This document shows positions 4,942-29,162 of a stretch of 64,000 nt of DNA, piece by piece. The notes beneath the pieces were generated by a model. That model worked only from the letters and a program-made list of their open reading frames with translations, ran no database searches and was not told the origin of the DNA. The stretch is from Candidatus Poribacteria bacterium (GTDB taxonomy: Bacteria; Poribacteria; WGA-4E; WGA-3G): positions 83,805 to 147,804 of the forward strand of contig JAJECN010000023.1 in NCBI GenBank assembly GCA_022821965.1, read 5' to 3'. Made by a program: the position numbers and the translations under genes. Numbering within the stretch: position 1 is the first letter of the stretch; every line of letters starts with the position of its first letter.

Positions 4942-6036
4942 TTAACTACACGCCTGCATCTTCAAACAGACGGGTGTTGGCACTTCTGCTACATCCCCTG
5001 TCGCATTCAACTCTCCAGTTTCGGTGTCAATTGCGAACGTAACGACCGTATCTGTCTGCTGATTGGCAGCAAAGAGAAAGGTGCCCTCCGGGTTCAGCCC
5101 GAAGTTCCGCGGTGTTTGTCCCTGTGTTGATTCATAACCGATAGGACTGAGCATCCCCGTCTCTGCATCAATCGCGCAGATAGCGATGCTATCGTGTCCA
5201 CGGTTTGAACCATACAAAAACTTTCCGGAAGGATGGACGTGAATATCGGCACAATGGCTGGTGCCGTCGAAATCATCGGGAAGCGTGGAGATGGTCTGAA
5301 ATTCAGTTAGTGTTCCCGCATTCGCGTCGTACCGGAAAGCAGTGAAGGTAGAATCTATCTCGTTAATCACGTACGCGTACTGCTTATTCGGATGAAAATC
5401 GAAATGACGTGGTCCCGCACCCGGCTGTACGCGCACCCACGGCTGCGTATTAGGTGTAAGTTTCCCACTTTTCGCATCCAATTGGTAGATAAGCACTTTA
5501 TCAAGTCCGAGATCGGGTGAGAAGGCGTAACGATTGCCCGGATCGATCATAATTGCGTGTGCGTGAGGTTCCATCTGCCGCTGTGGGTTGACACTTGACC
5601 CTTGATGCTGCACGAAATCGGAGGCATCACCGAGTCTACCGTCTGATCCTATTGGGAAAGCAGCGACACTTCCACCGCCATAATTCGCCACGAGTAAACA
5701 TTTACCAGTGGCATCTACACTCAGATGACACGGGGCACCACCGCCGGTCGCTTGCTGGTTGAGATAACTAAGTTCCCCTGTTTCTTTGTGAATGTAAAAC
5801 GCTGTGACTGCGCCACTGGGTTTACCCTCAAACTCACCGAGTTCATTGACAGCAAAGAGATACTGTCCACTCGGGTGTATTTCCAAAAACGATGGGTTTT
5901 CAACGCCTGTTATCTTGCTGCTATATTCTAAGGCACCGGTCGCGCCATCTAAGCGATAGACGTAAATCCCTTCGCTATTTCCATGCGTATAGGTGCCAAC
6001 ATAAACGAAATAGTCCTGGCTGTTCTGTTGCGCCAT
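4942..6036 (-). CDS. Lactonase family protein (6-phosphogluconolactonase YbhE/Pgl-like)
   Basis: Seven-bladed beta-propeller of the YbhE-type lactonase family: the start YVGTYTHGNSEGIYVYRLD, repeated blades with HPSG(K/Q)YLF-type strands, and ANYGGGSVAAF, PHAHAI, GPRHFDFHP and PRNFGLNPEG are characteristic. Family members hydrolyse 6-phosphogluconolactone or related sugar lactones in the cytoplasm. The ATG at 6036 is preceded by GGAGG at 9 nt; a TTG two codons upstream is less likely. The gene follows a sulfatase by 14 nt and closes the minus-strand run PhyH-sulfatase-sulfatase-lactonase, so it may handle a sugar lactone released in the same pathway. The substrate is inference. Confidence 0.88.
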   Translation of the reverse strand: MAQQNSQDYFVYVGTYTHGNSEGIYVYRLDGATGALEYSSKITGVENPSFLEIHPSGQYLFAVNELGEFEGKPSGAVTAFYIHKETGELSYLNQQATGGGAPCHLSVDATGKCLLVANYGGGSVAAFPIGSDGRLGDASDFVQHQGSSVNPQRQMEPHAHAIMIDPGNRYAFSPDLGLDKVLIYQLDAKSGKLTPNTQPWVRVQPGAGPRHFDFHPNKQYAYVINEIDSTFTAFRYDANAGTLTEFQTISTLPDDFDGTSHCADIHVHPSGKFLYGSNRGHDSIAICAIDAETGMLSPIGYESTQGQTPRNFGLNPEGTFLFAANQQTDTVVTFAIDTETGELNATGDVAEVPTPVCLKMQACS

Positions 6037-6050
6037 TATCAATAGCCTCC

Positions 6051-7661
6051 TTACGAAATTTTGAGGTGAATCGTTCTTTCTTCGCTTTCACTATAACCGA
6101 TGCGAATCGCTTTTGCTCGGACACTTGTTTCGCCTTTTGGTAGACGTAGTGGATCGGTATACAACCGCCAATGGGCATCCTCTCCTTGCTCCGTTGTGTA
6201 GGCAATAGATGCCCCTTGCGTGGAGCAGTGAAGTTGTAAAACAAGCGGAGCTGCCCATTCACCAACCCTGTGAGCGACCTCCGTACCGGGATGTTCGGCG
6301 TTAATAGGAATAAAGATCGGAGCTGCCGTTTGTGGCTGTGTACTATCAGGGTACCACGTCGCAACCATCTGTTCTTCCGGTATATTCCCCATATCCCCAA
6401 ATTCGGACTGCCACTCTGCCAGCGCACCGCGCATCCGTCCCAGTACGTCTTGATGTTCAGAGTCCGCTGCTAAATTGTTGAGTTCATACCGGTCATTTTC
6501 AATATCATAGAGTTCTTCGGCTGGACGTGGAGAACGGAACATTACTGCTTGATCGCCTTCCAATTCGCCTGCGGCATATAATCGCCACATCTCCTGCATG
6601 ACTGGGTGCCGATTGCGATAGGGGATCCAAAGCAGATACGGCTTTTCGGGGTAATAATTTTTGATGTATTTATACTTTTTATCACGTACAGCGCGGACCA
6701 TATCGTAGGATTCGTCGTAGCGGTCGCGCGTCGCGAAAATATAGTCGCGTTCGATCTTCTGCGGACCGAGGAAGGGTTGTCCCTGTAGATGTTCCGGTGC
6801 CTGCACGTCGCAGAGTGAAAGGACGGTCGGACCGAGGTCAATCAGACTTACGAGTTGTTCAGTGACACTGCCGGAACTCAGCGTGCCGGGCCAGCGGACG
6901 ATCAAAGGTATACGGATGCCAGCGTCATAGGGCCATCGTTTTCCACGCGGTAGCCCTTCACCGTGATCGCTCCAGAGAAAAACAATAGTATTCTCTACAA
7001 GCCCATCCTCCTCCAACTGATCCAACAGTTCACCGACGCGTGCATCGGCAGTTGCGAGATTATCGTATTGGCGAGCCAACGCTTGCCTTGCTTTCGGCGT
7101 ATCGGGTAGATAAGGGGGTAACTGCACATCATCTGGATTCGTGGTCGTGGTCAACGGACGATCCTCGCGTTCCCACATACCGCTTTCATGCGTAACACCC
7201 GGATTGAAGACCGAGAAGAAGGGTTGTCCCGTTTCACGATTTCGCCAATGCGCGGTGTTGTTAGACTCATCCCATGCTGTAATCGGTGGTGTGAACTGAT
7301 AATCGGTTTTGCTATTGTTCGTGCAGTAATAACCCGCGCCTCTGAGGTATTCGGTGAATGTTTTGACGTAAGGCGGTGGCACAGCGGAATACGGTGTTGG
7401 CATGTCAGGCGTATTTTGGTTTGTATGCGTCGTCCGCATGTGATGTGTACCGATAGAGGTTTGGTACATACCAGTAATGATTGCGGAACGGCTCGGGGCA
7501 CAGACACCGGCGGTCGAAAAGGCATTCGGAAACCGACATCCGCCGGCAGCAAGCCGGTCAATATTCGGTGTGCGAGCGATTGGGTCTCCGTAACAACCAA
7601 AACGTGGGGTCGTATCTTCTATCGAAATCCAAAGAATGTTCGGGCGATCTGGTGTGTTCAT
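6051..7661 (-). CDS. Sulfatase (CAPSR type), tandem copy A
   Basis: Formylglycine-type sulfatase of 536 aa. Motifs: PNILWISIEDTTPRFGCYGD (first metal site, with Glu-Asp rather than Asp-Asp), Cys54 in CAPSRSAIITG as the formylglycine precursor, FLWSDHGEGLPRGKRWPYD as the second metal site, and EELYDIENDRYELNNLA near the C-terminus. The last 70 residues (TTEQGEDAHWRLYTDPLRL region) form a small beta domain resembling chitobiase/Fn3-like C-terminal modules. GGAG precedes the ATG. It is a close paralogue of the next gene at 7743-9353, same length and mostly collinear at residue level, so the two arose by tandem duplication. No signal peptide. Confidence 0.93.
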   Translation of the reverse strand: MNTPDRPNILWISIEDTTPRFGCYGDPIARTPNIDRLAAGGCRFPNAFSTAGVCAPSRSAIITGMYQTSIGTHHMRTTHTNQNTPDMPTPYSAVPPPYVKTFTEYLRGAGYYCTNNSKTDYQFTPPITAWDESNNTAHWRNRETGQPFFSVFNPGVTHESGMWEREDRPLTTTTNPDDVQLPPYLPDTPKARQALARQYDNLATADARVGELLDQLEEDGLVENTIVFLWSDHGEGLPRGKRWPYDAGIRIPLIVRWPGTLSSGSVTEQLVSLIDLGPTVLSLCDVQAPEHLQGQPFLGPQKIERDYIFATRDRYDESYDMVRAVRDKKYKYIKNYYPEKPYLLWIPYRNRHPVMQEMWRLYAAGELEGDQAVMFRSPRPAEELYDIENDRYELNNLAADSEHQDVLGRMRGALAEWQSEFGDMGNIPEEQMVATWYPDSTQPQTAAPIFIPINAEHPGTEVAHRVGEWAAPLVLQLHCSTQGASIAYTTEQGEDAHWRLYTDPLRLPKGETSVRAKAIRIGYSESEERTIHLKIS

Positions 7662-7742
7662 TATGACTCCTTGTTTTTGGCAAAGATTTTACCCTAAACA
7701 GCGGTTTAAGTCAATAAGGTCGTCTAAGCATTCCAAGGTCGT

Positions 7743-9353
7743 TTAGTCGTCTGAAACTGTGAATTTTAGAGATTTTTCATCGCTCTCTTTGTAACCGATC
7801 CGAATTGCTTTTGCTCTTATAACGGTTTCACCTTTCGGTAAACGCAAAGGTTCTGTATACAACTGCCATCGGACATCTTCACCTTGTTCGGTTGTATACG
7901 CAAGTGAGGCACCTTGTGTTGAACAGTAGAGTTGCAGAAGCAGCGGTGCGTCCCATTCTCCATCTTCGTGAGTAGGCTCCATGCCGGGGTTAGACGCGTT
8001 AATCGGAATGAAAAGTGGTGATGCTGTTTGTGGTTGTGTGCCGTTAGGATACCACTTCGCCACCATTTCTTCTTCAGATATATTCCCCATATCCCCGAAT
8101 TCCGATTGCCATGCTGTCAACGTTTCTCGCATCCGTTTAAGCACATTTCCATGTGCTGCATTCTCTGCTAAGTTGTTGAGTTCATACTTGTCATTTTCCA
8201 CATCGTAGAGTTCTTCAGTGGGACGCGGCGATTGGAACATGACCAATTGATCTCCCTCTAATTTGCCTTCGGCATGAAGTCGCCACATCTCCTGCATCAC
8301 GGGATGGCTATTGCGGTAAGGATCCCAGAGAAGATACGGATTTTCGGGATAATAATTTCGGATGTATTTATACCTTTTATCACGTACAGCACGCAACATG
8401 TGATACGATAAATCAAGGCGGTCGCGCGTCGCGAAAATATATTCACGTTCTACTTTTTGTGGTCCAAGGAAGGGGTGTCCTTGTAGGTGCTGCGGTGCTT
8501 GAACACCGCATAACGAAAGCACAGTGGGACCGAGATCAATCAAACTCACCAATTGATCGCTTTCACTCCCTGGATTAAGTTCTTCGTGCCAACGCACAAT
8601 CAACGGAATTCGGATCCCCGCATCATAGGGCCACCGTTTACCGCGTGGGAGTCCTTCACCGTGATCGCTCCAGAGAAAAACAATAGTATTTTCTGCGAGT
8701 CCATCTTCTTCCAGTTGATCTAATAACTCTCCGACACGGGCATCGGCTGTGGCGAGGTTATCGTACTGTCGAGCCAATGCGGCACGGGCTTTAGGTGTAT
8801 CTGGTAAATAAGGAGGTAATTCCACGTCATCTGGATTCGTGGTCAGTGGACGATCTTCCTTTTCCCACATACCGCTTTCGTGTGTAACGATTGGGTTAAA
8901 AACGGAAAAGAAGGGTTGCCCTTCCGTACGATTTCGCCAGTGTCCTTGATTGCTATTGTCATCCCACGCTGTGATAGGTGGTGTAAACTGATAGTCTGTT
9001 TTACTATTGTTGGTGCAATAATAGCCTGCCCTTCTCAGGTATTCGGTGAAGGTTTTCACATAAGGTGGAGGAACAGCAGAATACGGCGTAGGTAGGTTAG
9101 GTGTACTTTCGTGTGTATGCGTTGTCCGATGGTGATGTGTTCCGATGGAAGTCTGATACATACCGGTGATAATAGCGGAACGACTTGGTGCACAGACTCC
9201 GGCTGTTGAAAAGGCATTTGGAAACCGACATCCGCCTGCAGCGAGGCGGTCAATATTTGGGGTGCGGGCGATTAGGTCACCATAGCAACCGAAACGCGGC
9301 GTTGTATCCTCTAAAGATAGCCAGAGGATATTCGGACGATCTGGTGTGCTCAT
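7743..9353 (-). CDS. Sulfatase (CAPSR type), tandem copy B
   Basis: Close paralogue of the neighbouring sulfatase, also 536 aa when started at the ATG at 9353, which has GGGAG at 5-6 nt. The frame is open to 9422 but the extra 23 residues are not similar to copy A and would run into the PhyH gene end. Catalytic Cys54 lies in CAPSRSAIITG; other sites are LSLEDTTPRFGCYGD and FLWSDHGEGLPRG. Differences from copy A are scattered (for example HHHRTTHTHESTPN against HHMRTTHTNQNTPD), so both look intact and under selection. It lies 31 nt after PhyH and 81 nt before copy A. Confidence 0.93.
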   Translation of the reverse strand: MSTPDRPNILWLSLEDTTPRFGCYGDLIARTPNIDRLAAGGCRFPNAFSTAGVCAPSRSAIITGMYQTSIGTHHHRTTHTHESTPNLPTPYSAVPPPYVKTFTEYLRRAGYYCTNNSKTDYQFTPPITAWDDNSNQGHWRNRTEGQPFFSVFNPIVTHESGMWEKEDRPLTTNPDDVELPPYLPDTPKARAALARQYDNLATADARVGELLDQLEEDGLAENTIVFLWSDHGEGLPRGKRWPYDAGIRIPLIVRWHEELNPGSESDQLVSLIDLGPTVLSLCGVQAPQHLQGHPFLGPQKVEREYIFATRDRLDLSYHMLRAVRDKRYKYIRNYYPENPYLLWDPYRNSHPVMQEMWRLHAEGKLEGDQLVMFQSPRPTEELYDVENDKYELNNLAENAAHGNVLKRMRETLTAWQSEFGDMGNISEEEMVAKWYPNGTQPQTASPLFIPINASNPGMEPTHEDGEWDAPLLLQLYCSTQGASLAYTTEQGEDVRWQLYTEPLRLPKGETVIRAKAIRIGYKESDEKSLKFTVSDD

Positions 9354-19228: not shown

Positions 19229-19257
19229 TTGACTTTTTTTCTTAAATTTTTTACAAT
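19229..19257 (+). promoter_or_regulatory. Near-consensus sigma-70 promoter of the PglZ/TGT operon
   Basis: TTGACT (19229-19234), an exact 17-nt spacer of T/A-rich sequence, and TACAAT (19252-19257). Transcription would start near 19264, only a few bases before the ATG at 19267, so the first gene may be read from a leaderless or almost leaderless mRNA. Confidence 0.65.
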
Positions 19258-19266
19258 GATTATCAA

Positions 19267-19527
19267 ATGGATGAACCGATGCCAAATTCCCGATCCATAA
19301 CCCAACTTGCAGCTTATTGGAAACGAAATGGGCTCAGCACGCGCGCCAGTTATGTTCTTGCCAAAGCTGGTATATCGGAGACACAGTTGGTAGCGTACCG
19401 TGAAATATCGGCACTCTTATGTTTGAAAAACTGCGGTTCCGAAACCGCCAAAGAAATCTGGGATTTTATGGCAAACTCAGAACGAGAAGTGAAAGAGGTG
19501 AAATTTGAAAAGCTCATCCCGAACTAA
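19267..19527 (+). CDS. Small RpoA-CTD/helix-hairpin-helix-like protein
   Basis: 86-aa protein resembling the C-terminal domain of RNA polymerase alpha: LSTRASYVLAKAGISETQL corresponds to the first HhH segment, and CLKNCGSETAKEIWDFM corresponds to the alpha-CTD motif LKNxGxKTxxEI that contacts the DNA minor groove and activators. Free-standing, with no alpha N-terminal domain. It is the first gene of the operon, immediately downstream of the promoter at 19229-19257, and overlaps the next gene by 23 nt. It could be a DNA-binding regulator or a DNA-sensing subunit. The fold call is from motif; the role is inferred. An internal ATG at 19279 is an alternative start. Confidence 0.7.
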   Translation: MDEPMPNSRSITQLAAYWKRNGLSTRASYVLAKAGISETQLVAYREISALLCLKNCGSETAKEIWDFMANSEREVKEVKFEKLIPN

Positions 19528-21085
19528 GTTTGTACCTGTAACGCCAAACGAGATTCAACCTGTAACGATCCGCTATGCCCGTGAAACAGATGTAGCCGGT
19601 GCAAAGGATCTCGCGGACCGGCATCGGATGGAATTAGGCTTTGTTCGGGTATCCGTGCTACACGAAGCACAAAAAAAGAAATGGCTCCTCGTCGCCATTC
19701 GGGATGAACAGGTCATCGGTTTCGCTAATTTCCGTATTCGTCAGGATAAAAACGCCACGCTTTATGATATTGTTATTGATGAGTCCTATCGTAAGCAGAA
19801 AATCGGGAAACGGCTTATACAACGCTTAACGTGGTTAGTGAACGTAGCTGGAGGCGAACATATTCGACTCAAGTGCCCCCAATCTCTTCCAGCAAACGCG
19901 TTTTACGAGAAACTGCAATTTACACGGACAGATACCGAAATCGGGAAAAAGCGTCCGTTAAACGTATGGCACTACTTCCTCAAACCATTGCCCCGGCGGT
20001 TTGAATTCAATGAGAACGGTGATGGATTTTTACACAGTCCACCAGATCATTCCCCACATTTTTTCGCTTCAGCAACGATTGCCCCTGGAGAAATACGAAA
20101 GATCTACGAACTCTGGCATGCGCATGCCCACGATTTTGAGTGGTCCCGAGGTAAACCGAATCCATTTCAACGGTTGTTAATTTCACCTGTACTTGCTAGC
20201 TCTTCAACACTCGCGTTTGTGCGTGAACTTAAGCGGAGCGGTGAAACGGAAGAAGTCATGTTCGATTCCGGTGGTTTCTTCGTCCAAAAGGGGGATATTA
20301 CTTATAACGAACTCTATTCAAAATTACGTGAGGTTTACCAGACAGAAGATTGGGCGGATATCTACATTTTGCCAGACAATCCACCATTGAGTAGGGATTC
20401 TATGTCTGACGCTGAAACTAAAATCCGACAGACAGTTGATGGAAGTGTTAGTTTTGCTTACCAATTGCCGTCTGATCTCCGTGGAAAGGTGATGCCAGTA
20501 ATCCATGCCAAACAGCCTGCACACCTGGAGTTTTGTCTGCAAAACTATGAAGTTTTAATGGCGGACTCACACCGGATCGGTTTCGGGTCTTTTTCAACCA
20601 TGGGCACCACGAATTCAATTAACCGGGTCAATGTGGATGTGTTGCGTTTGCTTGATGATTTAGTCCCGCGACTCAATGGGAGTCGGCTTCATAGTTTTGG
20701 AATTTCAACGCCCCCCGCTGTTTTCTGTTTAGCAAAGGTGGGTGTAAAAACTTTTGATTCCAATGGTTGGATGCGGACGGGTGGTTATGGGTCTATATTT
20801 TTTCCGTTCATGTATGGTAGGCGGATTGATTGTAAAACTCGTAAATACTCTCGTATTCATAAGGATGAGTTTGAACCCCTAAAATTGAACATTGGACATC
20901 GATGTCCATTTTGTGAGTCCTTTGATAAACTAGCAGAGGAAAGTGGGCGGTGGTTTCGGATTATGCATAACCTAATAGTCATGGCAGAATTAGGGACTTA
21001 CAACTACCAACCACAATGGAATATCCTCGAAGAGTACTCCGAACATTATTACCGAATGCTTAAAGATGTGCAAATATCAACATAA
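19505..21085 (+). CDS. GNAT acetyltransferase fused to tRNA-guanine transglycosylase-like (DpdA-type) domain
   Basis: 526-aa two-domain protein. Residues 20-160 are a GNAT domain (YDIVIDESYRKQKIGKRLIQ is the acetyl-CoA motif A). Residues 165-526 are a TGT-family base exchanger: Asp254 in MFDSGGFF, Asp291 in ILPDNPP, the IGFGSF glycines (359-361), candidate nucleophile Asp418 in KTFDSNGW, and a zinc site from Cys443, Cys467-x2-Cys470 and His488 in MHNL. All positions follow TGT order. Known TGT-family enzymes swap guanine for 7-deazaguanines in tRNA, or in DNA (DpdA). The company of PglZ and HerA favours DNA here (inference). TTG start with GAGG upstream, coupled to the preceding gene. Confidence 0.75.
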   Translation: MKSSSRTKFVPVTPNEIQPVTIRYARETDVAGAKDLADRHRMELGFVRVSVLHEAQKKKWLLVAIRDEQVIGFANFRIRQDKNATLYDIVIDESYRKQKIGKRLIQRLTWLVNVAGGEHIRLKCPQSLPANAFYEKLQFTRTDTEIGKKRPLNVWHYFLKPLPRRFEFNENGDGFLHSPPDHSPHFFASATIAPGEIRKIYELWHAHAHDFEWSRGKPNPFQRLLISPVLASSSTLAFVRELKRSGETEEVMFDSGGFFVQKGDITYNELYSKLREVYQTEDWADIYILPDNPPLSRDSMSDAETKIRQTVDGSVSFAYQLPSDLRGKVMPVIHAKQPAHLEFCLQNYEVLMADSHRIGFGSFSTMGTTNSINRVNVDVLRLLDDLVPRLNGSRLHSFGISTPPAVFCLAKVGVKTFDSNGWMRTGGYGSIFFPFMYGRRIDCKTRKYSRIHKDEFEPLKLNIGHRCPFCESFDKLAEESGRWFRIMHNLIVMAELGTYNYQPQWNILEEYSEHYYRMLKDVQIST

Positions 21086-21101
21086 CGTTAAAGGAAACAA
21101 T

Positions 21102-21926
21102 ATGTCCCGAATACATATTCTCAAAGGATTTTCTGATGTCGATAGTGCCTTATGGGTTTTGAAGTATCATCCGGGTCCCCGAAGTCGTTCGGATTTGGTG
21201 CAAATAGTTCGTGACAAAGGTTATATGGTAGCAAATGAAGATTATGAAATCATTCTGTTATTAATTAAATGGGGAATTGCCCGACGCACTCCATCGGAAT
21301 TAACTCACAAAGGTAAAGAGTTTTATGCCTTGTGGGAAAGGAATCGAGATGTGGCTATTGACATACTACACGGGTTGCAATACGGTTTGTGGACAAAACA
21401 CTTGCGGACTCAAAATACAGAGTCTTGGTCTTATCGAGAGGTTTGTAATTATCTTTGGGATTCTGATGCCTTACCCAAAAAGGATGACGTTATCAGTCAT
21501 ATCTATAATAGCCTCTCATATCTGGAAATAGATCCAGAAAAGGCGGCGTTTGACGGTAAATCTGTGAATCATGCCTACGATTGGCTTTTACCACTTTCTC
21601 CACTAATGCTTGAGGGAGTCAGAGAAACAGCAAACGGCAGAAATTTCAGGAATGCCACTTTTAAACGGCGCTCTCACTGTTCTACAGCGTTGTTTCTAAT
21701 GGGATTGGATTGGGTTGCTAGGGAATCTGGAAACACCTATGGAGATTTATGGATGATTGGAGAGGAACAGAGACGGCAAGTTTGCCGATTCTGTTTAATT
21801 GACGAGACGCGGTTTGACTTCATGTTCAACGAAACGCTTCGCCGCTTTTCTGCTTACTTATCTGTTCGCAGATCTGGTGGTCTTTATATTGTTATTAATA
21901 ATGAACCACAAATCTCTGATTTTTAG
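21102..21926 (+). CDS. Winged-helix-like protein of unknown function in the PglZ/TGT operon
   Basis: 274 aa from an ATG at 21102 with AAGGAA at 7 nt; an in-frame start 36 nt earlier overlaps the previous gene. Residues about 12-80 look like a winged helix (ALWVLKYHPGPRSRSDLVQI, then LLLIKWGIARRTPSELTHKG). The remainder is mixed helix with KRRSHCSTALFLMGLDW and a VCRFCLIDE Cys pair, which does not form a complete zinc site by itself. I do not recognise the family. Its size and position before a very large ATPase recall DpdG of Dpd clusters or small DNA-recognition subunits of BREX/Dnd-like systems; this needs a profile search. Confidence 0.65.
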   Translation: MSRIHILKGFSDVDSALWVLKYHPGPRSRSDLVQIVRDKGYMVANEDYEIILLLIKWGIARRTPSELTHKGKEFYALWERNRDVAIDILHGLQYGLWTKHLRTQNTESWSYREVCNYLWDSDALPKKDDVISHIYNSLSYLEIDPEKAAFDGKSVNHAYDWLLPLSPLMLEGVRETANGRNFRNATFKRRSHCSTALFLMGLDWVARESGNTYGDLWMIGEEQRRQVCRFCLIDETRFDFMFNETLRRFSAYLSVRRSGGLYIVINNEPQISDF

Positions 21927-21943
21927 TTTACGGAGTTATTTTT

Positions 21944-24900
21944 ATGTCATTACACGAAATTTATAAAAAAGAACCTACTGTAGCTACGCCCTCGGTTTAT
22001 AATTTAGTATCTGCACCAGAAATGTGGGATCGTAAATTTCACTTTCATGTCAGCACTCATATATCTATTGGGAATTTACGGAACCGGTGGGACGCTATCA
22101 TTAACAATCTCCTGAAAAAACGTTCTGTAACCGGTTTGATCTACGCAGATAAAGGTTACGGTAAAACTTCTACCGGTATTTCTTTATGGCAAGCAGCGGA
22201 GGCGAAACAGATTGTCACAGTCCCCCCATTTGTCTGGGGGAGTCTTGCTGATATGCTTACGGCGACGCATGCATGGATCTGCTATCGTTTGCAAGATACA
22301 CGACCTGAACTTATCCATGATATCGAGCAAAAACATCGAGAGATAGTTGAAGTTGATGAAGAAACGTTGGCACAAAGGTTAGTCCAAGAGAATAGCTTAT
22401 CTTATGATCAGGCTCGCAACACGATTAATCACTTGAGAGAAGCAGGTCGACTTTTAGAGGTTTTGTCTCCACACCAACTTTTGGACTACCTCCGTTTTAC
22501 AACGCAAATACTTCTAAGATCAGGTTACAACGGTCTCTTAATGCTGCCCGATGAGTTTGAACTTTTTAAGACGAATCCTGACATATCACAGAATTATCAG
22601 AATCTCAAAGACTTTATCTTCGGACTTTATGAAGAAGAAAACTTCCCAATTGGATGTGTTGCCTTCACCTACAATCGCACATTTGCTGATATTGAGCTCA
22701 GAGCAAGTCATATATTAGATCGGTTTAATAAGCCCGAGGGGAGTCAGATTAACTTAGAGCAACTTTACGGGCAAACAGATTTTGCAAAGTATTTGTGGGA
22801 GAAATTGTCCGGAACACTTCAACTGTCGCCTTCAGAACGTAATGCTGTAGATACGGATGTTTTAGAGGCACTCGGGCAATTTTTACGCCATCCGCGATCA
22901 CGTGAACTTATGAGTGGTCCCCGTTCAGTTGTGAGGACATTTAATCGTGCAGCACAACGTTATATTGAAAGTAATAGACCCTATTCTATTTTTGATTTTT
23001 GTGATGATTATCTTTCTGGAAATATCAGTTACGGATCACAAGAAAGTGAAACAGCATCAGCCTATAACCAGATAATAGGATTACCAATTGTTCGTAATAC
23101 AACTGATGGTGATAAAATTGTTAAGTTACTCTGTGTACATCCAGAGGGGATACCACCGGAGTGCTTCCAGAAGTACGGTATTCCTGAGCAGGCTAAAGAT
23201 GTCGTTATCCAAGATCTCCTTGGGGATCATGTTAATATAAAAGTCACAGGACCGGCTCTAAAAATATATCGAGACGATTTGTTGGGCGTAGATGAACTTA
23301 ATGAAATTCTTAAAATGCTAAGAGGGACGTTTAGTCCAGCAGATAAAGAGTTCCACCGCGCTGCTGTGCGTGCTTTTAGCAGGCATATCCTCTCTGAAAT
23401 TTTGACGAAAAAGACAGGAGCTAGCCTTGGATGGGTTATTACCGAAACAGATGGAAATTTTGGATTTCATTGCAGATTGGATGCAAAAGGCACAGTTTTG
23501 TCAGATTATCCTGATAGAACATTAACCATTGATGTTGCCACAGAAATTCTCTCGAATTTCCCAACATCCGACAGCCAGTTTCGGACACAATTTACTTTGG
23601 ACACCACTAACCAGGTAGACAACGCTTGTTGTATTACAGCAAAGAGTCTTGATTTTCGTTTTAATGTACAGCAACCCATTGACGCTCAACGAGTACCAGA
23701 AGACATCGGTAAACTAGGAGAATTGTTCCTTCCTGAATTCATAACACCACTGCTTTTACTTTCTATCTTGGATTTTTTTGATGATGATTCAATAGTTTCT
23801 ATGGTGGAATCTGCAAAACAGGAAGCCGAAGTTGGGTTTCTTAAAGAGCGAATTCGTAATGAACTGATCCATTATTTTTTTTCACCTGAAATTAAGACAG
23901 AGGTTTACTTTGATCCAGTTGAACTTTCTACGGATTTTCAATCGGTGACTGCCGGAAAAGACTTCGTTGAAAATGTTTTACGAATTTTAATACCAAAGCA
24001 ATTTCCTGACTATTCTGCGGTTGCCACGGCAGCGCAATGGAAAAGATATTTGGATGCATATAAGCTCGCACTCAGCAACATTCCTACGCTTGCAATTAGA
24101 CGCGGAATTGAGCCCATGGCAATGGCTAATTCCGATGTTCCAGGACATTTTGGATTGAGCGGCATCTCCGCTTTTCGGAATTTCAATAACGTTGTTGGAC
24201 GCGAGTTGTTGAGATTTGAGGACAGTACTGGGCGGCAAGTCGAAGTTACAAGCAAACAAGAACAAGTAAATGTTTTGTTTACGCTTCATCGATTTGAAAA
24301 GCGACTCGTAGAACAACTTGAGACCAATTCCACAACTATTATTGTTGATGGGCAGGTTGTTAATGCAATAACGCTTCCTTTCGTCCATGAGTATGCTGCT
24401 AAGCTTGGTTATGCCAAGGACGAAATTAATGAGTTAGTAGATATTCTTAATACCCGCGGTATAATCAAGACCAAAAGCGAAATTGGTATGGAGCATCTCT
24501 ATATCGCCGATGTCTCTATCAATTTTTCCGAATTGGAAGCAAAATTGAGTAATATTGAGGACGTGATTAAATTAGCAGAATCTAAGGGGTTTGACTATCA
24601 ATATGACGTTCTCACCTCTGTCCGTAATCTCATCCAGACTGGGGGCATTGAAAATGATGAGGTACAAAAAGAGGAGTTGCGTCAAAAATTGAATTCGACA
24701 GAGAGGAACTTTGAGCAGTATTGCCGCAATATGATTATCACCGAGCAGAATTGTCTTGAACAACAGATTACCGAACTTGAGACACTTCGCCTTCCGGTTC
24801 CTAAAGTTTTAGGGCAGCAAACTGATTATCCTCCAGTAGATTTCAGCCAAATCCTTTTTGATGATATCCAAAACCATGTGAAACGTGCTTATGTAAGCCT

Positions 24901-25906
24901 TTCTGATGAAATTACGAAAATTCAGTCGAAAGTGCGAGATATGGTTGATCGTGAAGTTGAAACTTATGAATCAGATCAGACACTATTCAAAGCAATTGAG
25001 ACAGCTGATCGATTGAAATCGGAACGAATTAAAGTTGGCACGCAAATTAAAAATCTGAGTAAGAGACAGAATGATACCGAAGAATTATTCCAACTTTTCG
25101 ATCCGTGGAGACAGCTAGCGCGACAGTGCCATAACGATAAACGCTCAATGGAAAACAGTCGCGAAGATATGGAAGTCGGCAATCTAATTGATAGGTTAAA
25201 TGGTGTTGTGGGCGAGATAAGACAACACCTTTCTGAAAAACGCCAAAGCCTTAAAGATATTTTAAGCAACAGTGAACACTTCAAGTTAAAGATTGATAGC
25301 ATTAATTCCGAATTTGGTACATATGAAAAAGGTAAAGAAAATGAATTTATCAAATATCAAGATAACCTTGAGAATCTTTTGCGGAAACTCTTTGAGAAAC
25401 CACATATTGGCGTAAGTTGGAATCCTGCTGATCAAGATGGATGTTACAGGGACACTCGGCAAAAGGTTGTTGAAAAGTTGTTAAAGGAAGTTATAGGCGA
25501 AGCGAGACGGCAAATTGATAGCCTCAACCGTGATTTGCGGCAGCCAATTGATATTCTTGCTGTCCCTGATGAATTAAAAGATAAATCAGTCGCTTTACGT
25601 CAAGATCTACAGACGTGTGACAAAAAATTCTTGGCAGTCCGCTCGGAACTGACTATTGAGCAAGTTGACACTGAATTAGAAAATTGGGTGTCTACATTGA
25701 TTTCCCTACGCGAAGCCGGTAGAACATACTTGAAGAGATGGGAGAAAATTAACGAGGATATGCAAAGGTTTAGAAGTGCTCTAAGCCAAACAGCACAAAG
25801 GTTACATGATGCTGTAAACCCACTGATAGAGGATGGCACTTTCCCTTCAGCACGCGCAATTGTTGAATGCTTAGAGGAATTGTATGAATTGCGGTCAAAC
25901 GTTTGA
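21944..25906 (+). CDS. 1320-aa P-loop ATPase with long coiled-coil C-terminus (BrxC/PglY- or DpdH-like)
   Basis: Very large cytoplasmic NTPase. Walker A is ADKGYGKT (residues 68-75) and Walker B is GLLMLPDEFELF (197-208), followed by an AAA-like region up to about residue 345. A winged-helix-like middle part (EGIPPECFQKYGIPEQAK and onward) comes next, and from about residue 890 there are long charged helices (NSTERNFEQYCRNMIITEQN and later segments) predicted to form coiled coils. Size and layout match BrxC/PglY of BREX/Pgl and the large ATPase of Dpd clusters, but I cannot assign a subfamily. GGAG lies 8 nt before the ATG. Codon and base use is clearly AT-richer than in the flanking catabolic genes, suggesting horizontal transfer. 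Confidence 0.8.
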   Translation: MSLHEIYKKEPTVATPSVYNLVSAPEMWDRKFHFHVSTHISIGNLRNRWDAIINNLLKKRSVTGLIYADKGYGKTSTGISLWQAAEAKQIVTVPPFVWGSLADMLTATHAWICYRLQDTRPELIHDIEQKHREIVEVDEETLAQRLVQENSLSYDQARNTINHLREAGRLLEVLSPHQLLDYLRFTTQILLRSGYNGLLMLPDEFELFKTNPDISQNYQNLKDFIFGLYEEENFPIGCVAFTYNRTFADIELRASHILDRFNKPEGSQINLEQLYGQTDFAKYLWEKLSGTLQLSPSERNAVDTDVLEALGQFLRHPRSRELMSGPRSVVRTFNRAAQRYIESNRPYSIFDFCDDYLSGNISYGSQESETASAYNQIIGLPIVRNTTDGDKIVKLLCVHPEGIPPECFQKYGIPEQAKDVVIQDLLGDHVNIKVTGPALKIYRDDLLGVDELNEILKMLRGTFSPADKEFHRAAVRAFSRHILSEILTKKTGASLGWVITETDGNFGFHCRLDAKGTVLSDYPDRTLTIDVATEILSNFPTSDSQFRTQFTLDTTNQVDNACCITAKSLDFRFNVQQPIDAQRVPEDIGKLGELFLPEFITPLLLLSILDFFDDDSIVSMVESAKQEAEVGFLKERIRNELIHYFFSPEIKTEVYFDPVELSTDFQSVTAGKDFVENVLRILIPKQFPDYSAVATAAQWKRYLDAYKLALSNIPTLAIRRGIEPMAMANSDVPGHFGLSGISAFRNFNNVVGRELLRFEDSTGRQVEVTSKQEQVNVLFTLHRFEKRLVEQLETNSTTIIVDGQVVNAITLPFVHEYAAKLGYAKDEINELVDILNTRGIIKTKSEIGMEHLYIADVSINFSELEAKLSNIEDVIKLAESKGFDYQYDVLTSVRNLIQTGGIENDEVQKEELRQKLNSTERNFEQYCRNMIITEQNCLEQQITELETLRLPVPKVLGQQTDYPPVDFSQILFDDIQNHVKRAYVSLSDEITKIQSKVRDMVDREVETYESDQTLFKAIETADRLKSERIKVGTQIKNLSKRQNDTEELFQLFDPWRQLARQCHNDKRSMENSREDMEVGNLIDRLNGVVGEIRQHLSEKRQSLKDILSNSEHFKLKIDSINSEFGTYEKGKENEFIKYQDNLENLLRKLFEKPHIGVSWNPADQDGCYRDTRQKVVEKLLKEVIGEARRQIDSLNRDLRQPIDILAVPDELKDKSVALRQDLQTCDKKFLAVRSELTIEQVDTELENWVSTLISLREAGRTYLKRWEKINEDMQRFRSALSQTAQRLHDAVNPLIEDGTFPSARAIVECLEELYELRSNV

Positions 25907-25917
25907 CAACCTATTAA

Positions 25918-26466
25918 ATGAATTGGTTAACCTATCATAAACAACTCTTAAAATTAGCGGAAACGATGGAAACGCTAATGCCTTCTCAAATTTCCGCGCG
26001 AAATGTGCTTCTACTTGCTATTCAAACATGGGAACCATACATCAATCTGTACGGACCACCCGGTGTTGGGAAGACTTTTATTGTCCACTGTTTGCATCAT
26101 TGCACTGACCTCCTCTATTTTTCGGATCCGACTCGTTACAACGCCTCTGTTTCCAAAGAGTGTGCTGTGGCAATTGACAATGCACCGCACACCCGCCAAG
26201 AAGCACGCCGACTTTATGATAGGATCCGATGGGGACAAAAGGATTATACCGGTCCAAAGAATGTTATCTTAATCACGCGCCAACCTATTGATGATGATAT
26301 ACGGAAGATTGAACTAACATTGACAGACATTGACATTGCCCATATAGAAAACATCATGCGCCAACAATTCGGTAAATCTGATTTTGAGGACTTCAGTGAG
26401 TATGCTCAGCAACGTTCAGGCTTGTGGTGGTACATCAAAAACCTTTGTTGTAGCATAGAATGTTAG
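25918..26466 (+). CDS. Small AAA-type ATPase, C-terminus encoded within a dispersed repeat
   Basis: 182-aa P-loop protein. Walker A is GPPGVGKT (residues 46-53), Walker B CAVAIDN (82-88), then a strand NVILITRQPIDDD in sensor-1 position and a short helical end. It is like a clamp-loader/DnaA-type AAA core without a full lid. It starts 11 nt after the large ATPase, with no clear ribosome site, so coupling is likely. The last six residues and the stop lie inside a 25-nt sequence (26448-26472) that recurs at 41891-41915, so the natural C-terminus may have been cut by repeat insertion. Probably a motor or loader subunit of the system. Confidence 0.75.
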   Translation: MNWLTYHKQLLKLAETMETLMPSQISARNVLLLAIQTWEPYINLYGPPGVGKTFIVHCLHHCTDLLYFSDPTRYNASVSKECAVAIDNAPHTRQEARRLYDRIRWGQKDYTGPKNVILITRQPIDDDIRKIELTLTDIDIAHIENIMRQQFGKSDFEDFSEYAQQRSGLWWYIKNLCCSIEC

Positions 26467-26472
26467 TCTGTG
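26448..26472 (+). repeat. Dispersed 25-nt repeat overlapping the end of the small AAA ATPase gene
   Basis: TTGTAGCATAGA-A-TGTTAGTCTGTG differs at one base from the copy at 41891-41915. It supplies the final codons and the TAG stop of the ATPase gene. The frame after it (from 26462) is open for about 25 codons in a different phase. Confidence 0.6.
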
Positions 26473-26566
26473 TGCTTATGCGTCCGCAAATGAACAGTTT
26501 ACAGCGAAAAAAACGCATATCGCCGTGATTCTCATGGAAATATAGGAAGTTGCTTGGGAGGTTATC

Positions 26567-26749
26567 ATGTTAGTGAAAAGACTTTTTGAAAAACTCGAGC
26601 ACCGGAGACTCGAAAAAGCTCGTTTAGAGGGGGTATCTGAAGGCTTATCCGAAGCACAGAAAAAACATGCAGAATGGGTGGAATGGGCTAAAAACGGTCA
26701 GGATAAGCCGCAACCCAAACCCCCAAAAGCTCCAGAGACGGATAGTTAG
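26567..26749 (+). CDS. 60-aa charged protein of unknown function
   Basis: Small ORF with a strong ribosome site (GGGAGG 6-7 nt before the ATG), lying in frame-independent space between the small ATPase and PglZ genes. The product begins MLVKRLFEKLEHRRLEKARL, forms one amphipathic charged helix through SEGLSEAQKKHAEWVEWAKN, and ends in a Pro/Lys tail. No known family recognised. The ribosome site, the absence of overlapping coding and the operon position argue that it is real; it could be an adaptor or an inhibitory peptide of the neighbouring ATPases (inference). Confidence 0.6.
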   Translation: MLVKRLFEKLEHRRLEKARLEGVSEGLSEAQKKHAEWVEWAKNGQDKPQPKPPKAPETDS

Positions 26750-26791
26750 GTAGACACACTCTCTGGGCCCGAGCACAAAGGACAGAATGAA

Positions 26792-27886
26792 ATGGCACAG
26801 CAATTGTGCACAATCCCCTGCATAACTGAAATCCCGGAAAACTATCGTGCCTTGTGGGAACTTTGCCTTACCGATGTGTGGTGTCCAGCATCGCTTGAGG
26901 AGTGGCGAGAGCGAATTGACTCACCTCGCCAAATTGATGCAGATTCAACACTTTTTGTGAATTTATCTCCTTCAGACCGAGAAGAATTAACACAGGTTTT
27001 CGGTTTTCCGACAGTTGAATTTCCAGCACTTCCTTCAATGGAACAGGTCAATGAGGCATTGCCAAACCGTTTTGGGACAATTCATCTATTCAAACAGTCT
27101 GATGTCGCTGCAGAAATTACAAAACGGATTCATCAGGAATTGCCACAGATCGTCGTTCTATTGGTTTTCGATGGCTTATCCTTTTATGATGTCGTAGATT
27201 GGAAACTACCCCAAGCTACACTGGAACCGTGTCTTGTAGATGGATTAAGTGTCACGAATAGTGCTATGCAACGACTCATCGGTTCACCTGTTTTAACACA
27301 TAGACTTTTTGGGATGGGATATATCCGGCGATTGGGTTTTTCATATTGGGAACGCGCAGCAAATGTATTAACCGACGCGCTTTTTGCTGAGTTTCCACCG
27401 AACCAACTGCATCGCATGACAACCTTTGATGAAGTTTTAAAGACAGTAAAGGCATCCAGATGGTCAACACATACCTACATTCAGATTATCCGTTCTGGAC
27501 TTGATGGGGTTTGCCATGCTAACAGAGAACGCCCAAATATTAAGTCGATTCTTAACGATCTAAAACGAGATATTTTATCGCTTCTTGAGGTCTTACAAGC
27601 AACTGAGAAATCATTTCGTCTCTTCATTACTGCCGACCATGGGATCCTTTGGTACGCTGACCAAGACATCATTCCGTTGGCACAAGAGAAATTCAAGGCA
27701 CGGTATACTCACGGATCTATCGCACGAGGGGATAACCAGCTAACGCTGAATACCGATGAGGGCACCTACACCGTTTTAACTGGCGACAAAGTTATCGCGA
27801 AACAGCGTAAAGTGACAGAGTGGGGTTTTCACGGTGGAGTCTCAGCACAAGAATCATTAGTCCCATTTTGGGATGTCCGTCAATAA
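26792..27886 (+). CDS. pglZ-like: Compact PglZ-domain protein
   Basis: 364 aa. An alkaline-phosphatase-superfamily PglZ domain covers residues 118-364: VVLLVFDGLSFYD (Asp127), FITADHGILW (Asp282, His283) and WGFHGGVSAQESLVPFWDV (His347) give the expected metal ligands. The first 100 residues are a helical extension. BREX and Pgl PglZ proteins are usually about twice this length, so this is a minimal form. PglZ is essential in BREX and Pgl systems and some members hydrolyse phosphodiesters or cyclic oligonucleotides. Here it sits 17 nt before HerA and downstream of two ATPases and a TGT enzyme. No methylase (PglX) is present anywhere in the operon. Confidence 0.85.
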   Translation: MAQQLCTIPCITEIPENYRALWELCLTDVWCPASLEEWRERIDSPRQIDADSTLFVNLSPSDREELTQVFGFPTVEFPALPSMEQVNEALPNRFGTIHLFKQSDVAAEITKRIHQELPQIVVLLVFDGLSFYDVVDWKLPQATLEPCLVDGLSVTNSAMQRLIGSPVLTHRLFGMGYIRRLGFSYWERAANVLTDALFAEFPPNQLHRMTTFDEVLKTVKASRWSTHTYIQIIRSGLDGVCHANRERPNIKSILNDLKRDILSLLEVLQATEKSFRLFITADHGILWYADQDIIPLAQEKFKARYTHGSIARGDNQLTLNTDEGTYTVLTGDKVIAKQRKVTEWGFHGGVSAQESLVPFWDVRQ

Positions 27887-27903
27887 AGTGAGAATAATTT
27901 ATA

Positions 27904-29112
27904 ATGGCTGAAGTGAATCTACGAGTCGGGACTGACTACGAAACTGAAGATATAGCGTATATCCGAGCAACTGGTTCTCGTGCCGTGTTTATCTGTGGGA
28001 AGCGAGGTTCCGGAAAAAGCTACACACTCGGCGTGATTGTTGAAGAATTGTTCGCGCAGGAACGCGGAAAAGCCGTTCTAATTATCGCCGATCCGATGGG
28101 TATTTATCACACGATGGTTTCGGCGAACGAAAGCCAATCGGATGAAGTTCGACAGGCGGGATTGCTAACTGAAGGGTTTCCTGTCCACTTGGTTGTTCCG
28201 GGGGATCCGCTTGCCTGTTTCGGAGATGCACAAATCCTTAACAGATTGCAAATGAATGGCGTTGAGGTAACATCATTGTGGGTTAATGCTCATGATTTGT
28301 CAGCGGATGCTTGGTGTGAACTTTTTGATCTGGAAATCAACAACGCTATGGGAATAGCGTTGTGGCGGGCGGTGGATACCCTTCAGGAAACCCGCGAACA
28401 TTTTAATATTTCGGATATATTGAAGGCACTCCGTAAAGATACGCGCGCTAAAAGCACCACAGTAGAAGCACTCGAAAATCGTTTGACAGCTGCGCAAAGG
28501 TGGGGATTTTTCTCTGAAGAACCAACCCACTTAACGGATGTATTTTCCTTGGAACATATTAACGTTTTGGATTTAAGTGTTATTGATGCAGGCACTAAAG
28601 GATTGCGGAATTTAGTGTTGGATATTGTTGCACGACGGTTGTTTACAGAACGGACGCGGATGCGCCGACGCGAAGAATTTGGAATGGAAACAAGTCTTCC
28701 CCGAGTTTGGATGGCAATTGACGAAGCACATCAGTTTATACCGCAGGGCAAGGGGTCCTTATGTAAAGAGATGTTAATCCGTTGGGTTAAAGAGGGACGC
28801 CAGCCCGGACTGAGTCTTGTCGTCGCGACGCAACAACCCTCCGCAATTGATTCTGAATTGCTTTCGCAGTGCGACTTGATTATGGCACATAAAATTACGA
28901 CATGGGATGACATCAACGCCCTTGATCGACTAAGTGCAACGTATATGGAAGGCGATTTAAAGGGATATATCCGGCAACTTAACCGGCGTGGCGAGGCACT
29001 TCTGGTTGATGACGAGACCGAATCTGTTAACACAATCCGTGTCCGTCCGAGACGTAGTGCGCACGGCGGGGCTGAAATTCAGGAGCAAACAGCGAGTCGC
29101 TCCTTTTTCTAA
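27904..29112 (+). CDS. HerA/DUF87-family P-loop ATPase
   Basis: 402-aa HerA/FtsK-superfamily motor. Walker A GKRGSGKS (residues 32-39) follows RAVFICGK, the ADPMGIYHTM strand is typical of DUF87, Walker B is VWMAIDEAHQF (268-278), and ATQQPSAID (308-316) is the sensor motif. The end has the RRGEALLVDD strand common to HerA. Such hexameric motors translocate along double-stranded DNA and partner with nucleases (NurA, SIR2, DUF4297) in repair and phage defence. No nuclease partner is encoded next to it, so the PglZ protein or the large ATPase may be its partner (inference). Last gene of the operon; a perfect hairpin follows. Confidence 0.87.
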   Translation: MAEVNLRVGTDYETEDIAYIRATGSRAVFICGKRGSGKSYTLGVIVEELFAQERGKAVLIIADPMGIYHTMVSANESQSDEVRQAGLLTEGFPVHLVVPGDPLACFGDAQILNRLQMNGVEVTSLWVNAHDLSADAWCELFDLEINNAMGIALWRAVDTLQETREHFNISDILKALRKDTRAKSTTVEALENRLTAAQRWGFFSEEPTHLTDVFSLEHINVLDLSVIDAGTKGLRNLVLDIVARRLFTERTRMRRREEFGMETSLPRVWMAIDEAHQFIPQGKGSLCKEMLIRWVKEGRQPGLSLVVATQQPSAIDSELLSQCDLIMAHKITTWDDINALDRLSATYMEGDLKGYIRQLNRRGEALLVDDETESVNTIRVRPRRSAHGGAEIQEQTASRSFF

Positions 29113-29137
29113 GAGGCTATCTGTGGACAGTTAGTAA

Positions 29138-29162
29138 AAGGGTGGATACAGAATCCACCCTT
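29138..29162. terminator. Perfect 10-bp hairpin between HerA and sulfatase genes
   Basis: AAGGGTGGAT (29138-29147), a 5-nt loop, and ATCCACCCTT (29153-29162) are exactly complementary. It lies between two convergent genes and ends in TT on the plus strand and starts AA, so it can act in both directions. Confidence 0.75.

Follow-up and report, generated by a model that had tools for sequence, protein, structure and literature searches.

A divergent operon of the BREX-Related Capture type with a predicted GNAT-TGT base-exchange enzyme in a poribacterium

What could a base-exchange enzyme do in an operon whose other proteins resemble machines that act on DNA? The question is raised by a 64,000-nucleotide stretch of DNA, referred to here as the window, from a Candidatus Poribacteria bacterium (GenBank assembly GCA_022821965.1, 5.69 Mb in 62 contigs; contig JAJECN010000023.1, positions 83,805 to 147,804, forward strand). 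Eight genes (g1 to g8), all on the plus strand, span positions 19267-29112 of the window, with a ThuA-type gene on one side and a convergent sulfatase gene on the other. An earlier model-made description, the sequence-only reading, had delimited the same eight-gene operon, and gene calls and profile searches confirm it. From comparisons of sequences and models, we propose, at a probability of roughly 0.55, that the operon encodes a defence system of the BREX-Related Capture (BRC) kind, in which a guided GNAT-TGT enzyme would mark the host's own DNA, and PglZ and HerA would attack DNA that is unmarked. The features of the operon are as follows (lengths in amino acids, aa).

19229-19257, plus strand: sigma-70-like promoter candidate, TTGACT-17-TACAAT; such sites are no commoner than in the shuffle background.
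19267-19527, plus strand: g1, 86 aa, alpha-CTD/HhH-like (open reading frame, profile match and phmmer).
19505-21085, plus strand: g2, 526 aa, GNAT-TGT fusion, predicted base-exchange enzyme (profiles, sequence and fold comparison).
21066-21926, plus strand: g3, 286 aa, SspB-fold (BrxA/DUF4007-like), predicted DNA-recognition protein.
21944-25906, plus strand: g4, 1320 aa, BrxC-like P-loop ATPase (profile and Walker motifs).
25918-26466, plus strand: g5, 182 aa, small P-loop ATPase occupying the place of the BRC STAND NTPase.
26567-26749, plus strand: g6, 60 aa, charged protein.
26792-27886, plus strand: g7, 364 aa, PglZ-type metal phosphodiesterase, predicted effector (profile matches).
27904-29112, plus strand: g8, 402 aa, HerA/FtsK-type ATPase (profile matches).
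20770-26310, plus strand: exchangeable cassette, ends good to about 90 bases.
29138-29162, strand not assigned: hairpin separating the convergent g8 and sulfatase genes.

The TGT fold is seen in the g2 model and the SspB fold in the g3 model, which makes the winged-helix label of the sequence-only reading more exactly that of an SspB-fold protein. Predicted active sites are conserved. Walker A and B are invariant in all 27 near-full-length members of the g4 family, as are Walker A (G..G.GKT) in the 14 members of g5, a putative counterpart of the BRC STAND NTPase, and Walker A together with the DE of Walker B in the 13 members of g8. The g7 protein has the PglZ catalytic motif, with weak profile matches mostly over the C-terminal part.

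In the mechanism that we propose, g3 and g4 would likely choose the DNA site and aim the TGT, which would exchange chosen guanines of the host's own DNA for a 7-deazaguanine base; the GNAT would acylate this base or its precursor; and g5, g7 and g8, or Druantia proteins in other loci, would attack DNA lacking the mark. We infer that the TGT targets DNA and not RNA, that the inserted base derives from preQ0/preQ1 and is the substrate of the GNAT, and that HerA feeds DNA to PglZ for cleavage. By analogy, the closest experimental parallel would be SspBCD, described in PMC8092258 as a single modification module that is compatible with either SspE or SspFGH and that protects self. The phosphorothioation systems (Ssp/Type-4 BREX) likewise combine an SspB fold and a BrxC-type ATPase in the modification module, whereas the window has TGT and GNAT in place of the sulfur-transfer enzymes.

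The sequence-only reading took the operon for a defence or DNA-modification system with a TGT in the methylase's place, which is consistent with our findings; its further statement that no described system has this set is out of date. BRC, published in January 2026 and found in 45 taxa (PMC12839542, section 36), comprises seven parts: PglZ, a BrxC-like ATPase, a STAND NTPase, a BrxA-like protein, HerA, GNAT and TGT. In that account, the HerA/FtsK translocase is universal, GNAT and TGT occur in a subset and are occasionally fused, and the hallmarks are a DUF6079 BrxC-like ATPase, a DUF4007/BrxA-like tripartite DNA-binding protein and an active STAND NTPase (PMC12839542). The window operon also has PglZ, a BrxC-like ATPase, a small NTPase, a BrxA/SspB-like protein, HerA and a GNAT-TGT fusion. 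Unlike BRC, it has a g3 and a g4 that the DUF4007 and DUF6079 Pfam models do not detect. BRC PglZ carries an N-terminal inactive Swi2/Snf2 part (PMC12839542); the window PglZ is 364 aa long in total. PF19557 (DUF6079) has no match anywhere in the window genome; profile-profile comparison of g4 with an alignment of only 3 DUF6079-type sequences gave 89% over ~200 columns, and the BrxC_BrxD model stays below cut-off for the window g4 (0.0045) and is above it in one relative (L120). Because the DUF4007 and DUF6079 parts are matched only by fold or partly, the window operon is divergent and BRC-type and not a proven BRC member. A word search of the main text of PMC12839542 found no Druantia, Poribacteria, QueC or QueD, and cassette exchange is not treated in its section 36.

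Other named systems fit the window less well. As the sequence-only reading had noted, the hallmarks of plain BREX and plain Dpd are missing: neither the PglX methylase nor the BrxL model matched any of the eight proteins, and Dpd, which shares a TGT-family enzyme within a defence-type operon, was rejected with the DpdB-K partners unmatched and no Dpd model match among the eight. MADS was rejected because only the Mad8 model matched (g8, 9.6e-23), with no Mad1-Mad7 match among the window proteins; DndH profiles match g8 too (1.5e-6). Druantia was rejected for the window operon, which has PglZ and HerA as effectors and no match to DruE or any other Druantia model. The DpdA profile matches weakly in L060 and L120, two of the relatives. 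A DruE/DpdJ-like helicase lies near a distant TGT, itself with a weak DpdA match, in another genome of the phylum (L037:10237-18564).

The gene neighbourhood, whose conservation elsewhere had been put forward as a check on the defence reading, is kept in several phyla. We counted 36 distinct loci, namely the window and 35 relatives with both a TGT of this family and g3. Duplicates (L043-L048, L050, L052, L072 and L121-L124) were left out before counting; L054, L069, L030 and L076-L078 fall outside the 36, g3 not being seen in the sequenced stretch; and the count also excludes TGT relatives lacking g3 (L036, L037 and L042) and relatives that share the GNAT only (L038-L041). The g4 gene is present in 32 of the 36 and completes a trio of TGT, g3 and g4. 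PglZ was found in 15 loci, 14 of them with HerA (L059 breaks off inside PglZ at the contig end). In 15 loci, relatives of the GNAT-TGT and g3 genes, in most cases along with g4, lie near Druantia genes (DruE in 13; DruF and DruL without full DruE in L070 and L075), the sources being Poribacteria, cyanobacteria, Binatia, Chloroflexi, an Isosphaera (planctomycete) bin and one IMG/VR contig. No locus has both PglZ and Druantia genes, and six have neither: four of these (L029, L031, L064 and L065) end at a contig end, and L058 and L073 have 4 and 6 kb of further sequence with neither effector set. GNAT accompanies TGT, whether fused or separate, in both contexts (14/15 PglZ loci and 15/15 Druantia loci).

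PADLOC models confirmed DruE in L032, L055, L061 and L067, and DruF or DruL among the scanned proteins of L032 and L070; the remaining Druantia genes were called by profiles built from the confirmed ones. The DruE of L067 (Chloroflexi) is nearest the DruE3/DruE1 models, and those of L032, L055 and L061 match DruE2/DruE4. On the tree, the BrxC-like protein of L067 joins its counterparts from three Chloroflexi PglZ loci (100/100 support). Long-branch warnings for L061, L067 and L068 make their tree positions unsure, and the tree for g3 was made by a quick method. In Oscillatoria nigro-viridis PCC 7112, a conjugative plasmid bears the trio together with DruE, DruL and DruF. The pairing of TGT with Druantia was not mentioned in titles or abstract openings among the matches listed, nor, by word search, in the YprA paper. 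As a separate observation, three extra genes sit between g4 and DruE in cyanobacterial loci (L053:16344-19777; also L071 and L074), encoding proteins of 285-305 aa, 422-466 aa (AAA in L053) and 370-376 aa, the last matching PRTase-CE in L053 (7e-25).

Within the window's own genus, the middle of the operon looks as if it had been swapped between related species. Five relatives, each a separate species, carry the operon through HerA, and the same ThuA gene lies upstream in all four whose contig extends that far. DNA identity of the window to L026, L027 and L028 is 87-93% over g1 and the first two thirds of g2, 77-79% over the last third of g2, 61-65% in g3, 53-63% in g4 and 70-73% in g5, and returns to 94-95% in g6 and 86-92% in g7 and g8. 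In 90-base steps, the drop extends from about 20770 to about 26310, starting about at the Asp418 codon of the TGT. The cassette so delimited comprises the C-terminal ~105 aa of the TGT, g3, g4 and the N-terminal two thirds of g5, and is the AT-rich portion of the operon (40.5% GC). L024 has the window's cassette version (g3 94%, g4 96-98%), as does L025 except for an inner g4 stretch (about 24044-25393) at 65-82%. The window HerA protein is nearer that of L026 (96%, against 93% for L024) and its g4 protein nearer that of L024 (97%, against 52% for L026); therefore, the operon parts have different histories. The cassette probably determines target specificity. Two irregular copies were seen: g4 of L025 lies in two open frames (5007-8975; 866 + 453 aa) and may be broken or misassembled, and in L026 (13585-15918) a DDE transposase gene lies within ~2.8 kb separating g5 and g6.

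The nature of the base is best approached through a plasmid of Haloplanus sp. HW8-1, where the gene order is TGT-g3-g5-g4-PglZ-HerA-GNAT. The next gene after the GNAT is QueF (PF14489, 6.3e-17), with the motif ESKSLK, which we take to be that of NADPH-dependent QueF, and a divergent queD-queE-queC set lies about 1 kb from the TGT operon with one small gene intervening. This arrangement links the operon to 7-deazaguanine chemistry and points to preQ1, the primary amine of which could be acylated by the GNAT. In the window genome, QueC, QueF and a separate housekeeping Tgt are encoded on other contigs.

A broader and more tentative proposal, which we hold at somewhat less than even odds, is that GNAT-TGT, the SspB-fold protein and the BrxC-like ATPase form a free-standing module that would write an acylated preQ1-type base, couple to two or more unrelated restriction machines (PglZ-HerA and Druantia), and be retargeted by a 5.5 kb cassette swap reaching into the TGT. 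If true, this would add a marking chemistry alongside methylation and phosphorothioation, make base exchange a general marking module recombined in nature with different DNA-attack machines, and account in a single model for the presence of GNAT and TGT both in BRC and in the Druantia loci described above. The proposal specifies a chemistry that can be tested, acyl-preQ1 in DNA, together with two carriers, Oscillatoria nigro-viridis PCC 7112 and Haloplanus sp. HW8-1; the cassette versions offer a natural series for specificity mapping.

Several results weigh against these proposals. QueC, QueE or QueF adjoins the operon in only 1 of the 36 loci (Haloplanus), with a weak QueD-like match (1e-5) near the operon in L053. 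On a Natronosalvus plasmid, a QueF closely related to the Haloplanus one occurs without any match to the TGT or the trio within the 22 kb viewed. Among 28 host genomes (28 of the 32 loci of the relative set, mostly metagenome-assembled, including L054, L069 and L072 from outside the 36), full-length QueC is missing in 8, 3 of which have a PF02592 transporter, and QueF above cut-off is missing in 11. On these counts, the idea that every host makes its own preQ0 de novo was rejected, and the 7-deazaguanine hypothesis may be limited to part of the family. Profile comparison with DUF4007 gave no match for the whole g3 family or four sub-families, in a setting where the fourth sub-family recovered the other three at 59-99.9%. 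The starred branches require a minimum of two effector-label changes in the BrxC-like tree (three fewest) and of one in the TGT tree (two fewest); because the two labels cluster on the trees, effector exchange is rare. Lastly, the flank to the right of g8 differs in L026 and L028, and the common site therefore rests on the left flank.

The same defence system might instead use preQ0 itself, the GNAT acetylating a protein partner or something else, which we consider unlikely. The authors of the BRC study propose dPreQ0, perhaps as the only modification (PMC12839542); the 11 hosts with QueF below cut-off include those of L055, L066 and L068, which have QueC; and the protein acetyltransferases RimI and Ard1 are among the relatives of the GNAT domain by sequence and by fold. 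The QueF directly after the Haloplanus GNAT argues against this alternative, as does the retention of GNAT with TGT in both effector contexts.

It is less likely still, and indeed improbable, that RNA, whether tRNA or phage RNA, is the substrate of the TGT in an RNA-sensing or abortive system. The closest solved relatives of the g2 TGT are tRNA TGTs, and the L049 relative of g1 has three alpha-CTD stretches and sigma70 region 4, but the partners resemble DNA machines (SspB fold, BrxC-like ATPase, HerA, and PglZ or DruE), the housekeeping Tgt exists separately, and GNAT and TGT occur near replication genes on a viral contig. Very improbable is a mark that does not protect, the TGT damaging or tagging invading DNA while the host is spared by another cue: present data are compatible with self-marking and with foreign-DNA tagging alike, but one module with alternative restriction sets mirrors the self-protecting SspBCD with SspE or SspFGH (PMC8092258).

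The viral contig (L077, IMG/VR 3300006054_000001) has separate GNAT and TGT genes, and neither g3 nor g4 in the stretch examined; its neighbours encode a phage-type DNA polymerase, a helicase and a processivity factor, with a SAVED-domain gene just upstream. The two ends of a 73.7 kb contig (IMG/VR 3300002920_000014) carry the TGT pieces L076 and L078, as they would on a circular molecule; five neighbouring proteins scanned gave no PHROG match. Among 50,697 phage records, the window protein found two records of the same length, aligned over the GNAT part only, and the viral-contig TGT found no match.

The remaining observations concern single proteins. As the iterative g1 profile drifted into large sigma-like proteins, direct phmmer served to test the g1 link: it relates g1 to part of two proteins (683 and 689 aa) that occupy the corresponding position in L049 and L051 (~1e-10), the only ones reached outside Poribacteria. 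The first iterative g3 profile drifted into g4 and was rebuilt without it. Relatives of g6 occur, among the loci searched, only in Poribacteria. A separate DUF4007 (SspB-type) gene lies on another contig of the window genome (G000:C9:79538-80464). Haloarcula sinaiiensis pHsi139 (L126) was rejected as a relative, its neighbours not matching g3 or g4; its TGT gene, near QueE, QueD, an EVE-domain gene and a BREX-type ATPase gene, possibly belongs to another TGT system. Finally, L038-L041 are 666-712 aa proteins of Poribacteria-related genomes that have only the GNAT part of g2 in common.
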